Below are positions 9,912 to 45,590 of a stretch of 64,000 bases of DNA, piece by piece. The number at the start of each line of letters is the position of its first letter. The stretch's first letter is position 1. The notes under the pieces were generated by a model. It worked only from the letters and a program-made list of their open reading frames with translations. It was not told where the DNA came from and did no database searches. Source of the DNA: Balneolaceae bacterium (GTDB lineage Bacteria > Bacteroidota > Rhodothermia > Balneolales > Balneolaceae). A program made the translations under genes and the position numbers. The DNA is taken from NCBI GenBank assembly GCA_034521495.1, contig JAXHMK010000022.1, positions 1-64,000 of the forward strand, written 5' to 3'.

Positions 9912-10760
9912 TTAAAATTCAAGCAGAATGTTATCTATCAGCCGGGTATCTCCTATCCATACGGCACCGGCTATGATGTATTGTTCATTTTTTGTTAACG
10001 TTTCTGCCGGAGTCAACGTTTTTTTATCAAAGACATTAAGATAATCAATTTCTAAACCTTTTGCTTCCAGTTCACTCTTCTGGTGTTCCAGTAAAAGCTT
10101 TGGAGTGCTCACTCCTTCAGCAATCTGCTTTTCGATATATTGAAGACTTCGGTATAAACTCGGAGCTTTTTGTCGTTCCTCTTTGCTCAGGTAGGCATTT
10201 CTGCTGCTTAATGCCAGGCCGTCATTAGCCCGAATAATCGGGCCCATTACCAGTTTAACCCCGTGATTAAATTCCGTAACCATCTGCTGAAGAATAATAA
10301 ACTGTTGAATATCCTTCTGCCCGAATACAGCAAAATCCGGCTCAATGATATTGAACAACTTATTGACAACCAACAGTATTCCTTCAAAAAAACCGGGTCG
10401 AGATCCGCCGTCGATATACTTGTTCAATTCATCTATCTCAATTCTGAGGTACTGTGTATCGCCGTACATAACCTGATCCGTAGGTGTAAATACCGCTGAG
10501 ACCCCCAGTTCCTGGCACTTTTTTAAATCAGTATCCAGTTCGCGCGGGTATTCCTCAAAATCTTCATCCGGTCCGAACTGTTCGGGATTCACATAGATAG
10601 ATACAATCACTTCATCTGCTTTTTCCTGGGCCAGCTTCATCAGGGAAAGGTGACCCTCGTGAAGGGAACCCATAGTGGGCACAAATCCAATTGTTTTTCC
10701 ATCTGTCTTTCTTTCTTTGATGAATGATCTTATTGAATCAATTTCTGAGAATACGTCCAT
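9912..10760 (-). CDS. panC: pantoate--beta-alanine ligase
   Basis: ATP-dependent joining of pantoate and beta-alanine to pantothenate, in the cytosol. Length 282 is standard. The nucleotidyltransferase HIGH-type motif is in [17 protein letters not shown] (about residues 29-45), with FGQKDIQQF near 146-154 and the second ATP motif in [11 protein letters not shown] near 182. It sits between the PQQ dehydrogenase and panD in a compact minus-strand operon. Confidence 0.96.
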
Positions 10761-10797
10761 AAACTTTTCTTATTTCTGCGGAAATCTATTATAAAAC

Positions 10798-13059
10798 CTA
10801 TGAATTTGGAAGGGTAAAAGCGATGTAGTAATCTCCTGATTTGGTTCCCAGTTTTCCTCCTCCGCAGGCAATCACCACGTACTGTTTGCCATCTACAGAA
10901 TAGACACTGGGTGTGGCATAACCCGCAACCGGTAGTTTGTATTCCCATAAAAGTTCGCCGGTTTCTTTATCAAACGCACGAATTTTTTCATCAAGCGTAG
11001 CTGCAATAAATAGCACGCCGCCTGCTGTTACAACCGGGCCTCCATAATTTTCAGTTCCCGTGGTTGGTATTCCCTCCTCAGCCAATTTCGGATATTCACC
11101 AAAGGGAATTTTCCACATATATTCACCCGTATTCAAATTGATGGCATTCAGAGTACCCCAGGGAGGGCTGCTGGCCGGATATCCCTCAGGTGTTCGAAAT
11201 TTATTGTAACCGGTCATTACGTATGGAGATGATTCTGATTCGCTTGTTAACTCCTGTTTGTCTGAGCTGCTCAAATCCACATCAAAATGAGTTTCGTTGA
11301 GTAGAAAGTTGACAACCGATTGTTTTCTTTCCTCCGAGAGGTGATTAAATCCGGGCATCATCCGCCGGCCGGTGTTAATCAGTTCAAGTATTTCTTCCGG
11401 GCTGTAGAGATCTTCGACACCGATCAGGGTTGGATTATTTCCCGTTCCTTCCCGGTCAGGCCCGTGGCATGCAATGCAGTAACTCATATAGGTACTCTCG
11501 CCAAAAGCGATGGAACTTTCGGCTGAACCGGGCGCTTGGGCTTCTGCCGGAACCATCGTGAGGGTCCACGGAACTTCATTACTGTTTACATATAGAATAC
11601 CGGTTTCAGGGTCGAACGCACTTCCGCCCCATTCAGCCCCGCCGTCATACCCGGGAACCATCAGGGTTCCTTCAAGTGAGGGCGGCTCATACATGTGGGC
11701 TCTTTTAAGAGTTTGTAGTTGATTTTTCAGATCCTCTTGGATTTCTTCAGAGACGTAAGGATTTATGGCCGAATCTGGCAGATGCTGCCGGGTAATTGGT
11801 TCAGGAATGGTTGGCCTTGGCTGAGTGGGCCAGACTTCTTCGCCTTCCAGGTTCGTTTCTGCGGGAACAGGAACTTCTTCGATGGGAAAAAGCGGCTCTC
11901 CGGTTTCACGATCAAAAAGGAAGATATATCCTGTTTTTGTGGTTTGAGATACGGCATCAATCTCTTCGCCATTATGAGTGACGGTAACCAGGTTGGGCGC
12001 AGATGGCAGATCACGATCCCATAAATCGTGATGTACGGTTTGATAATGCCAAATTCGTTCACCTGTAGCTGCATCCAGCGCCAGTAGTGAGTTGGCAAAC
12101 AGGTTCGAGCCCTTTCGGTTTCCTCCGTAGAAATCCGGGGAAGCAGAGCCGGTGGGAATGTAAACAATTCCTCGTTCCTCATCTAAAGCCATACCCGCCC
12201 AGCTATTAGCGCCACCTATTTTTTTCCAAGCATCGGGATCTTCCCAGGTATCGTAACCAAACTCCCCGGGATGCGGAATCGTGTGAAATGTCCACTCCAG
12301 TTCGCCAGTTCGAATGTTAAAGGCGCGAATATCACCGGGAGCTGCATCGTCTCCTTCTGATACGCGTGAGCCTATGATGATCAGATCCTCATAAACAATT
12401 CCCGGTGAGGTGGTTACCACGTAAAGATCTTCAGCCCGTCCCTGGAATCCGGCTTTCAGGCTGGCTTTTCCATTCTCACCAAATGATTTTACCCGTTCGC
12501 CATTGGCAGCATTCAGTGCATAAAGATCGGGACCGGCTGTAAAAAGAATGCGTTTATCGTTGCCACTCTCCCAAAAAGAAACACCACGGTTCACATTCAG
12601 CCAGGTTTGAATTTCAAGCGTATCTGGAAAGGGATTGAAGCGCCACTGTTGTTCCCCGGTTGAAGCATCCAGTGCAACAACATTCAATCGGGGAGTGGTG
12701 GAGTAGAGAGTTCCGTCGATAATGAGCGGATTGGCCTGGATTTGAGAATTTGCAACCGTATCTGCATCACCGCTGCGATAGGCCCAGGCAACTTCAAGCT
12801 GACTCACATTTTCGCGGTTAATCTGATCGAGCCGGGAATACTGACTGCTGTATTTATCACCCAGAGAAACTTTCCAGTCTTCTGAAGCACCGATTTCGTC
12901 GAATTCTGAGCTGCACGAAATTAACAAAAATGAGAAGACAAGCAGAACCAGAAAACTTAGTTGAGATGGCGCAAGCGTCCTCGCTTGTGCCACAGCGTCA
13001 TCACCGGCACAAGCGGGACGCTTGCGCCATTCCTTGTTATGTTTCGTAATTAAGGCCAT
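10798..13059 (-). CDS. PQQ-dependent dehydrogenase with internal cytochrome c domain, lipoprotein
   Basis: Quinoprotein alcohol/sugar dehydrogenase of the eight-bladed propeller family, 753 residues. Propeller W-motifs (ALDASTGEQQWRF, AFDKETGELLWEY) bracket an inserted cytochrome c with haem motif CIACH (528-532) and probable axial Met in RRMMPGFNHL. HHDLWDRDLPSAP is the usual active-site region. The lipobox LLISC (Cys49) anchors it in the envelope. Oddity: residues about 11-31, just before the signal-peptide core, are encoded by a 63-bp REP palindrome (12967-13029) that keeps the frame. ATG 13059 is the only upstream ATG giving the signal peptide. It lies 12 bases after the E2 gene. The substrate is not predictable. 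Confidence 0.9.
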   Translation of the reverse strand: MALITKHNKEWRKRPACAGDDAVAQARTLAPSQLSFLVLLVFSFLLISCSSEFDEIGASEDWKVSLGDKYSSQYSRLDQINRENVSQLEVAWAYRSGDADTVANSQIQANPLIIDGTLYSTTPRLNVVALDASTGEQQWRFNPFPDTLEIQTWLNVNRGVSFWESGNDKRILFTAGPDLYALNAANGERVKSFGENGKASLKAGFQGRAEDLYVVTTSPGIVYEDLIIIGSRVSEGDDAAPGDIRAFNIRTGELEWTFHTIPHPGEFGYDTWEDPDAWKKIGGANSWAGMALDEERGIVYIPTGSASPDFYGGNRKGSNLFANSLLALDAATGERIWHYQTVHHDLWDRDLPSAPNLVTVTHNGEEIDAVSQTTKTGYIFLFDRETGEPLFPIEEVPVPAETNLEGEEVWPTQPRPTIPEPITRQHLPDSAINPYVSEEIQEDLKNQLQTLKRAHMYEPPSLEGTLMVPGYDGGAEWGGSAFDPETGILYVNSNEVPWTLTMVPAEAQAPGSAESSIAFGESTYMSYCIACHGPDREGTGNNPTLIGVEDLYSPEEILELINTGRRMMPGFNHLSEERKQSVVNFLLNETHFDVDLSSSDKQELTSESESSPYVMTGYNKFRTPEGYPASSPPWGTLNAINLNTGEYMWKIPFGEYPKLAEEGIPTTGTENYGGPVVTAGGVLFIAATLDEKIRAFDKETGELLWEYKLPVAGYATPSVYSVDGKQYVVIACGGGKLGTKSGDYYIAFTLPNS
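12967..13029. repeat. double REP palindrome (BIME-like) inside the PQQ dehydrogenase gene
   Basis: Two inverted copies of a REP unit. The left unit is GGCGCAAGCG-TCCT-CGCTTGTGCC, the right is its inverse with one base fewer, and a 14-base spacer lies between. The whole element is 63 bp (21 codons) and has no stop in the coding frame. The left arm matches 25/25 with a single unit at 45566-45590. Similar, more decayed arms lie at 8641-8674. Confidence 0.88.
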
Positions 13060-13071
13060 TAAGAGTAGTAT

Positions 13072-14874
13072 TTAAATAGCCCGGTCGGTATCGAAGTTTT
13101 CGAGCAGATCTTTTACCCGGCTCATAAATGCACCGCCGTGGGCTCCGTCAATAATTCGGTGGTCGTAACTCATGGAGAGATACATCTTGTGGCGGATGGC
13201 AATTACATCTCCCTGGTCGGTTTCGAGAACCACGGGTCGTTTCTCAATCACACCGGTTCCTAAAATAGCAACTTGTGGCTGATTGATAATGGGGGTTCCC
13301 ATCAGGTTGCCAACACTTCCATAATTTGTGAGTGTAATGGTTCCGCCTACGAGATCATCAGGATTCAGATCTCTGTTTCGTGCTTTATTGGCAAGATCGT
13401 GAACGGACTTTGCAATACCGGCCAGGTTTTTGTTTTGAGCCTGTTTTATCACAGGAACAATCAAACCGCCTTTGCCGCCTTCGCCCAGTGCAACCGCAAT
13501 CCCAAAGTTGATATCTTTTTTGAGATGTATTTCATCGCCGTCAACCGAACTGTTAATCAGTGGGAACTCACCGATTGCCTGGATAAAAGCTTCAATAAAG
13601 ATCGGAGTGTAGGTGAGTTTTACACCGGTTTGATCGTAAAACTTCTTTTTGTTGGCTTCGCGCCATTTCACAATCTTGCTAACATCAACATCGCTAAAAG
13701 TGGTAACATGGGCCGAGGTTTGCTTGGAACGCACCATGTGATCGGCTATCACTTTGCGCATGCGGTCCATTTTTATAATTTCAACATTCTCTTGTGGTCG
13801 ATGCACATCCAATTCTCCGGCCGAAATTTTTCCTTTCTCCCCGGCTTTTTCGGCTGCTTTAGCAATTTTTTCTTTTCCTTTTGCGGCAGAGGGTGATTCA
13901 ATCTTACCGGCTTTTTTATCCTCCACGTAAGCGAGGATATCCTCTTTTGAGACCCGCCCGTCTTTACCACTTCCTTCGATAGATTCAAGCTCTTCCTGGC
14001 TAATGCCTTCCTCACTCGCTATAGATCGTACAAGTGGCGAGTAGAACCTGCCGTCGGATCCTTTTCGCTGTGGTTTCGAAGCAGTGTCTTCAGTCGCTTC
14101 TCCCGACTTTTTAGCCGTACCATTACTGGCGGATGCTTTTTTAGATCTTTTCGCATCTTCGCTTTCATCTTTCTTCGCTGATGATTTTGAAGCACCCGAT
14201 GGTTTGCCGGTGGTAATGATTGCAATCGTTTGCCCGACTTCAACGGTATCGCCCTCTTCAACTAAAATTTCTGCAAGATATCCTTCTGAGGGAGATGGAA
14301 CTTCGGTATCCACTTTGTCGGTGGCAATCTCCAGGAGAGTTTCATCCACTTCTACTTTATCGCCCACTGCTTTGGCCCATTCAATAACAGTACCTTCCAT
14401 CACAGATTCTCCCATCTGCGGCATCTCTACTTCAATACGTTCTCCTTCATCTTCGCCGTTGGAAGAATCTTCTGTATCCTCGGGCTCTTCTGATGACTTC
14501 TTCTCTTCTGTTTCGTTTGATTCTTCTGCGGTTTCTTCTTTCTCCTCTGCTGCTTCATCACTTTCTTCAGTCTCATCACTATCCGCAGTCTCATCATCTG
14601 AGGCAGAATCATCACTGCTATCAAAAGGCTCTCCCTCTGTATCAATGACGGCAATGGCCTGGCCCACCTCTACGGTCTCATCTTCTTCAACTAAAATTTC
14701 TACCAATACACCGGCTTCAGGCGAAGGGACTTCGGTATCCACTTTGTCGGTGGCAATTTCCAGGAGAGTTTCATCTACCTCAACTGCATCTCCCACCTTT
14801 TTTTTCCATTCAATAACGGTTCCCTCCATTACAGACTCGCCCATTTGGGGCATCTCAACTTCAACCTTTGCCAT
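13072..14874 (-). CDS. 2-oxo acid dehydrogenase E2 (dihydrolipoyl acyltransferase) with two lipoyl domains
   Basis: Core acyltransferase of a 2-oxo acid dehydrogenase complex, 600 residues. Two nearly identical lipoyl domains (about 1-78 and 146-222) have lipoylated lysines in ATDKVDTE at K44 and K187. They are joined by very acidic Ser/Glu linkers (about 82-145). An E3/E1-binding domain follows (about 278-318, GRVSKEDILAYVE), then the CoA-dependent acyltransferase with catalytic His in SYDHRIIDG near residue 572. Whether the substrate is pyruvate, 2-oxoglutarate or branched-chain acids cannot be settled; the PQMGESVMEG and AIRHKMYLS signatures are common in branched-chain/succinyl types. E1 and E3 genes are not in the window. 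First gene of the minus-strand operon ending in panD. Confidence 0.9.
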   Translation of the reverse strand: MAKVEVEMPQMGESVMEGTVIEWKKKVGDAVEVDETLLEIATDKVDTEVPSPEAGVLVEILVEEDETVEVGQAIAVIDTEGEPFDSSDDSASDDETADSDETEESDEAAEEKEETAEESNETEEKKSSEEPEDTEDSSNGEDEGERIEVEMPQMGESVMEGTVIEWAKAVGDKVEVDETLLEIATDKVDTEVPSPSEGYLAEILVEEGDTVEVGQTIAIITTGKPSGASKSSAKKDESEDAKRSKKASASNGTAKKSGEATEDTASKPQRKGSDGRFYSPLVRSIASEEGISQEELESIEGSGKDGRVSKEDILAYVEDKKAGKIESPSAAKGKEKIAKAAEKAGEKGKISAGELDVHRPQENVEIIKMDRMRKVIADHMVRSKQTSAHVTTFSDVDVSKIVKWREANKKKFYDQTGVKLTYTPIFIEAFIQAIGEFPLINSSVDGDEIHLKKDINFGIAVALGEGGKGGLIVPVIKQAQNKNLAGIAKSVHDLANKARNRDLNPDDLVGGTITLTNYGSVGNLMGTPIINQPQVAILGTGVIEKRPVVLETDQGDVIAIRHKMYLSMSYDHRIIDGAHGGAFMSRVKDLLENFDTDRAI

Positions 14875-44717: not shown

Positions 44718-45548
44718 ATGGTTGATTGGATAAAGAACCATATCGATGAAGAAGACCGCTTTGGAATAGCTATTACGGGAGCTATTCATATTGTGCTCCT
44801 TATCATCGCTCTTCTTTATACAATTGAACCCAACATGAACCGTGCGGCTTTTATGGAAGTGACTCTTGGAGAATTCAGGAGCGGTACGCTTGCCCAGCAG
44901 TCAGAGGTTCAAAATGAGCAGGTTGCAACCCGTCCCAATCCCTCTGAAGTTGAACCTGAAGAAGTAGATCCTGAAATTACCCAGCCTGTAGAAACACCTC
45001 AAAACCCTGTTGAAGAAACTACAAAACCGGTAGATCTGCCCGATCAGGAAGAGGACGTACCGGATGATGAAACCGTTCAAACACCAGAAACGGATGTTAT
45101 TAATCCTGAGAATGAGGAGGAGACTGAAGAGGTGATAGAGGAGGTTGTTCCCCCGCAAACCCAGGAAGATGAAGAGATTACGGAAGGAGTGGAAAACAGT
45201 GGAGATGAGCGTGGTACATCCGGTGATCCTAATGTGGACCAGGGTCCGGGGAATACGCCCGATAAATCAGCTCCGTACGATCTGCAGTGGGAAGGAGAAC
45301 TCAACCGAACTCCAATGGTTCAGCCCCTGCCCGACAATCAAACCAATGAAGAAGCGGTTATTACGATTCGCTTTGAAGTACATCCCGACGGTTCACTCGG
45401 GCGAGTTATACCTCTCAAAAAAATGAACCCTGAACTGGAGCGCGAAGTGATGAGAACCCTGCGAAGCTGGCGATTTTCACGACTTCCATCCGGCGCCCCA
45501 CAGGAACCGCAGTGGGGTACCATTACATTTAGATTCGTTCTGGAGTAA
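44718..45548 (+). CDS. TonB/TolA-type energy transducer
   Basis: 276 residues starting at ATG 44718. One membrane helix (about 17-38, ITGAIHIVLLIIALLYT) is followed by a long Pro/Glu/Thr-rich periplasmic spacer (about 60-180) and a C-terminal TonB-like domain (about 205-276: VITIRFEVHPDGSLG, VMRTLRSWRFSRLPSG). The Pro-Glu spacer is TonB-like rather than the helical spacer of TolA. With the two motor genes just upstream it forms a complete ExbB-ExbD-TonB set that could drive the barrel proteins in this window. Confidence 0.88.
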   Translation: MVDWIKNHIDEEDRFGIAITGAIHIVLLIIALLYTIEPNMNRAAFMEVTLGEFRSGTLAQQSEVQNEQVATRPNPSEVEPEEVDPEITQPVETPQNPVEETTKPVDLPDQEEDVPDDETVQTPETDVINPENEEETEEVIEEVVPPQTQEDEEITEGVENSGDERGTSGDPNVDQGPGNTPDKSAPYDLQWEGELNRTPMVQPLPDNQTNEEAVITIRFEVHPDGSLGRVIPLKKMNPELEREVMRTLRSWRFSRLPSGAPQEPQWGTITFRFVLE

Positions 45549-45565
45549 TAGAATTGAAGGATGAT

Positions 45566-45590
45566 GGCGCAAGCGTCCTCGCTTGTGCCC
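45566..45590. repeat. single REP unit
   Basis: TGGCGCAAGCGTCC followed by TCGCTTGTGCC: a hairpin with 10-bp arms (one G-T pair) identical over 25 bases to the left unit of the palindrome in the PQQ dehydrogenase gene (12967-12991). Located 17 bases after the TonB-like stop, the usual place for REP units. Confidence 0.85.

Follow-up and report, generated by a model that had tools for sequence, protein, structure and literature searches.

Why a mobile palindrome should lie within the reading frame of an enzyme, and whether the residues it encodes are made at all, is the question raised by a PQQ-dependent dehydrogenase gene of a Rhodohalobacter genome (here G000, 4.57 Mb). The window, i.e. the whole stretch of 64,000 nucleotides of G000 that was analysed, carries this gene between odhB and an ORF which, from its sequence, we take to be panC (Table 1).

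The repeat, its family and the associated transposases

The preliminary description had placed a stop-free double REP of 21 codons in this frame, which both the sequence and the ORF translation confirm. Bases 12967-13029 form codons 11-31 of the 753-aa ORF and encode WRKRPACAGDDAVAQARTLAP; in the leader these 21 residues follow MALITKHNKE and precede a hydrophobic core with the lipobox LISC at its end. The doublet is in frame, stop-free and inside a real gene, as intragenic REPs are. The outline first given for it needs two corrections, as the two units are not identical (their loops are TCCT and TCC) and the 4-nt tags GATG and AATG add 2 nt on each side, giving an element of 67 nt (12965-13031). 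The net insert would be 63 nt if one of the 4-nt tags belonged to the target.

Table 1. Positions of the features discussed in the text (window coordinates).
Feature	Position	Strand	Remarks
panC (pantothenate synthetase), downstream neighbour	9912..10760	-	named from its sequence
PQQ-dependent dehydrogenase	10798..13059	-	cytochrome c domain, lipoprotein signal, 753 aa
Hydrophobic core and lipobox (SQLSFLVLLVFSFLLIS-C)	12913..12966	-	ATG, GTG and TTG absent before the last codons
REP doublet (REPIN/BIME-like)	12965..13031	-	outward 4-nt tags AATG, GATG; 67 nt
REP unit 2	12965..12990	+	GATG-GCGCAAGCGTCCTCGCTTGTGC
In-frame GTG at codon 23, within the repeat (alternative start)	12991..12993	-	TTG in G015, GTA in G011
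REP unit 1	13007..13031	-	AATG-GCGCAAGCGTCCCGCTTGTGC
ATG start	13057..13059	-	12 nt past the odhB stop; conserved in 3/3 orthologues
odhB (2-oxoglutarate dehydrogenase E2), upstream neighbour	13072..14874	-	
Second REP of the window, singlet	45563..45588	+	GATG-GCGCAAGCGTCCTCGCTTGTGC; intergenic

As single-stranded DNA the doublet folds into one hairpin of -34.9 kcal/mol, while its shuffled versions average -12.75 (z = -9.9; 0 of 200 equally good). Like a REPIN, it is an inverted doublet forming a single hairpin. Further genomic copies, which the preliminary description had proposed to search for, do exist: the 24-mer form occurs at 27 sites in G000 at up to 2 mismatches, and a looser asymmetric core, GCGCAAGY-N-RCTTGTGC, at 82, with no match for the control pattern (the reversed one in the case of the 24-mer). 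The element is a short imperfect palindrome in many copies, as are RAYT-associated REPs. With a slightly relaxed core pattern we mapped 88 REP units, a count of units matched by the search patterns, and read the stretches of G000 around the copies. Most units bear a 4-nt 5' foot (GATG, GATA, AATG or ACTG), comparable to the tetranucleotide head of such REPs; these tags stand in place of the GTAG or CGTC of the classical REP superfamilies. Inverted partners were found for 22 of the 88 units, in doublets of 62-72 nt (a doublet with both units matching was counted from both ends).

Of all units mapped in G000, just the pair that makes up the window doublet falls within a long, coding-like ORF; the remaining 86 do not, in agreement with the earlier remark that REPs usually sit between genes. 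Other REPs overlapping ORFs were rejected as intragenic, since the ORF was short, did not look coding, or had an ATG downstream of the repeat (L211); at C9:93446 the 128-aa ORF shows no sign of being a gene. The singlet at 45563-45588 lies about 15-20 nt past the stop of an ORF ending at 45548. REP units are dense at G000:C9:664000-686000 (L143, L144), several of them as similar tandem doublets, and transposase genes at C9:672280 and C9:687970 accompany this cluster.

G000 has several Y1_Tnp-family transposase genes. In three cases (C9:95471-96025, C9:354880-355428 and C10:276187-276738) REPs of the gene's own type lie on both sides, as with REP-flanked RAYTs, with the same orientation of the REPs at the first and inverted pairs at the other two. 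The first passes NF047646 ('REP-associated tyrosine transposase') with 98.3 bits at a cut-off of 80, and so supplies the TnpA-REP (RAYT) transposase that the preliminary description had proposed to look for. Its flanking REPs are AATG-tagged, like the window copy, and the 25-mer of REP unit 1 recurs identically beside it (G000:C9:96267). This RAYT is the likely candidate, judged by its sequence and surroundings, for the mobiliser of the window doublet. Each of the other two (L138, L148) is bracketed by a REP type of its own (GCGCAAGCGTCCGCTTGTGC and GCGCAAGTTTGYAACTTGTGC, respectively), which suggests RAYT-specific REP families in G000.

Orthologues and the age of the insertion

Only two close orthologues were found among 59 relatives and 92 family genomes, namely in Rhodohalobacter sulfatireducens WB101 (G015, 86% identity) and in a third Rhodohalobacter species (G011, 81%), whose odhB genes are also the closest (94 and 93%, with no other above 88%). 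In all three species the dehydrogenase gene sits between odhB and panC, an arrangement unique to them among the genomes readable at this place (odhB was matched in 25 genomes of the genus, 23 of them readable past its end). In the remaining 20, odhB is followed by a panC-like ORF, usually via a terminator-like hairpin, and panC directly follows odhB in most other Rhodohalobacter genomes. At the junction occupied by the dehydrogenase gene (9912-14874 of the window), seen in three genomes of the genus only, the usual hairpin after odhB is gone. A second PQQ dehydrogenase, 51% identical, is encoded at G000:C1:8629-10665 (L058); the REP pattern had no match within 1.5 kb on either side of it.

The preliminary description had expected a 21-codon gap in close orthologues. 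Instead, both hold a homologous segment at the same place and of the same 63-nt length, alignable without gaps, with 47/63 identical positions in G015 and 38/63 in G011, while shuffles give about 16-17/63 and none of 20,000 reached 47 or 38. The segment is intact in G000, recognisable in G015 and eroded in G011; in the last of these the length differences within the leader come to 6 and 3 nt, whereas that of the gap ahead of the ATG is 5 nt. These alignments do not support a clean recent insertion, and since both close orthologues hold the segment at the same site, sequence comparison dates the insertion to before the split of the three species; it is not a fresh event. No orthologue with an empty site was found in the 59 relatives, the 92 family genomes and the GTDB contigs, so that the case for insertion into a pre-existing leader is an indirect one.

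The differences between G000 and G015 in the REP segment (8, 6 and 2 by codon position) show no third-position excess, and neither does the signal-peptide core, which is necessarily translated and served as a control for this comparison. At fourfold sites 56% of positions differ between the two genomes, as opposed to 2/24 in the left arm of the doublet, a value to which our own binomial estimate gives a chance of about one in a million if the sites were neutral; it follows that the repeat was either maintained or renewed. Renewal of the intact G000 copy, through re-insertion or overwriting from another REP, is a tentative possibility that would be compatible with an ancestral insertion. It would account for the conserved left arm and for the fit of the G000 copy to the family consensus, and REP types do sometimes differ between G000 and G015 at shared intergenic sites (L189 vs L003, L191 vs L179), hinting at turnover or repeated insertion. 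However, 16 G000 units occupy intergenic space orthologous to that of G015 units, in a search which detects intact REP copies only, and the six shared pairs that were examined have almost the same cores although their flanks no longer align, which offers general maintenance of REPs as an alternative to renewal.

The state of the doublet may also be set beside the RAYT content of the three species. A RAYT protein search of the genus gave four related copies in G000 (43-100%) and one in G011 (61%), and nothing above 33% in G015; the REP counts are 82, 5 and 49, respectively. The doublet is intact in G000, with four RAYTs of the matching clade, and eroded in G015, with none, and in G011, with one and few REPs. 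As a correlation over three genomes, this link between RAYT presence and hairpin integrity is no more than a lead.

Origin of the leader and the start of translation

The best explanation, to which we assign a probability of roughly 60%, is an in-frame insertion of the REP doublet, mobilised by a RAYT, close to the start of the PQQ-dehydrogenase gene, in an ancestor shared by at least three species of Rhodohalobacter. A RAYT would have moved the doublet into the 5' region of the ancestral gene, in frame, and the insertion would have been tolerated because the frame used is stop-free and the encoded WRKR... peptide presumably meets the chief need of a signal-peptide n-region, i.e. basic, soluble residues. 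Translation from the conserved ATG would then produce a leader with 21 REP-encoded residues, which would be cut off with the signal peptide as the lipoprotein matures, so that the finished enzyme would stay the same. At about 31 residues the n-region is long by lipoprotein standards, and this we count against the explanation.

Alternatively, the doublet may first have lain in the gap between odhB and a newly arrived PQQ gene, the start codon having later moved upstream through it. REPs in G000 are normally intergenic, the gene occupies a site where other species hold only an intergenic terminator, and related genes elsewhere have shorter leaders to which the first ten codons have no counterpart. 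Nevertheless, we regard this N-terminal extension as rather unlikely, as deletion of the 63 nt leaves an ordinary in-frame lipoprotein leader, as the preliminary description had noted for this gene, in all three species, for which chance would have to be invoked.

How much of the repeat is translated depends on the start codon. From the repeat to the last codons of the signal-peptide core of G000, ATG, GTG and TTG are all absent; at least 9 of the 21 repeat codons are therefore probably translated (the range being about 9 to 21), and translation most probably begins at the ATG or else at the GTG within the repeat. The ATG lies 12-17 nt after odhB across the three species, and in two of them a TTG comes directly ahead of it. 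All three leaders are open in frame 0 and have stops in frames 1 and 2, with net charges of +3, +5 and +5. Shine-Dalgarno evidence was dropped, the motif being rare in the window (4 of 36 genes). On these sequence features the conserved ATG is the most likely start, and the GTG is kept as a serious rival because most REPs at the N-termini of ORFs may in fact be extragenic, their apparent position being due to misannotated starts (PMC3733652).

Translation would in that case begin within the repeat, at GTG codon 23 in G000, at a TTG or GTG in G015 and at a TTG in G011. Most of the doublet would then be a 5' leader hairpin, with about nine REP codons translated and an n-region of normal length (MAQARTLAPSQLSFL...). 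Such a start would give a signal peptide of ordinary length, resembling related genes of another genus, and alternative starts are available in all three species; these fall at differing codons, though, whereas the ATG is conserved. In addition, none of the three species has a stop or a frame change in the codons ahead of the repeat, and the region around the GTG in G000 is predicted to be strongly paired (mean unpaired probability 0.23, compared with 0.56 around the ATG). We therefore consider an in-repeat start unlikely.

It may even be speculated that, from a time before the three species diverged, the leader has retained the doublet as a functional element that is translated and that perhaps also tunes expression as a hairpin in the mRNA, its DNA form being renewed by a resident RAYT in one of them. 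Such domestication of a mobile hairpin as signal-peptide sequence seems to us improbable. A chance origin of the palindrome is ruled out by its many genomic copies, the zero matches of the control pattern and the z of the fold, and the reading as a chance palindrome or a protein-level feature without relation to REPs has a negligible probability.

Known systems and significance

Intragenic REPs, mostly dimers, have been reported from many species, often near N-termini; such grouped repeats and dimers within ORFs encode 20-30 residues (Di Nocera et al. 2013, PMC3733652). The preliminary description, which named Rickettsia as the best-known source of in-frame palindromes, is thus too narrow on this point. 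Our literature search on in-frame REPs gave nothing on point beyond this paper. Like the GTAG/CGTC-tagged REPs described there, the element studied here is a dimer within an ORF, 21 codons long and near the N-terminus; unlike them, it belongs to a family tagged GATG, AATG, GATA or ACTG, and its orthologous retention in three species is documented.

With REPINs and their RAYTs (Bertels and Rainey 2011, PMC3116915; Nunvar et al. 2010, PMC2817692) it shares two inverted REPs in one hairpin, a population of copies and REP-flanked RAYT genes. However, the putatively mobile doublets described here are shorter (62-72 nt in total), and the window copy is genic rather than extragenic. Rickettsia palindromic elements are likewise in-frame palindromic repeats inside coding genes, but these occupy many genes of one genome (see PMC3733652), whereas here a single long-gene site is found among 88 units and a RAYT is present.

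In-frame REP dimers are already known; what makes this one worth attention is its retention in orthologues and a testable link to RAYT content. The locus provides a datable genic REP, with the same site occupied in three species; the repeat is intact in the genome with many related RAYTs and eroded in those with few or none. Two questions thereby become testable, namely whether the cell in fact produces the residues that a REP encodes and whether copies already in place are renewed by RAYTs. The case further suggests that the n-region of a signal peptide can accommodate a mobile palindrome.
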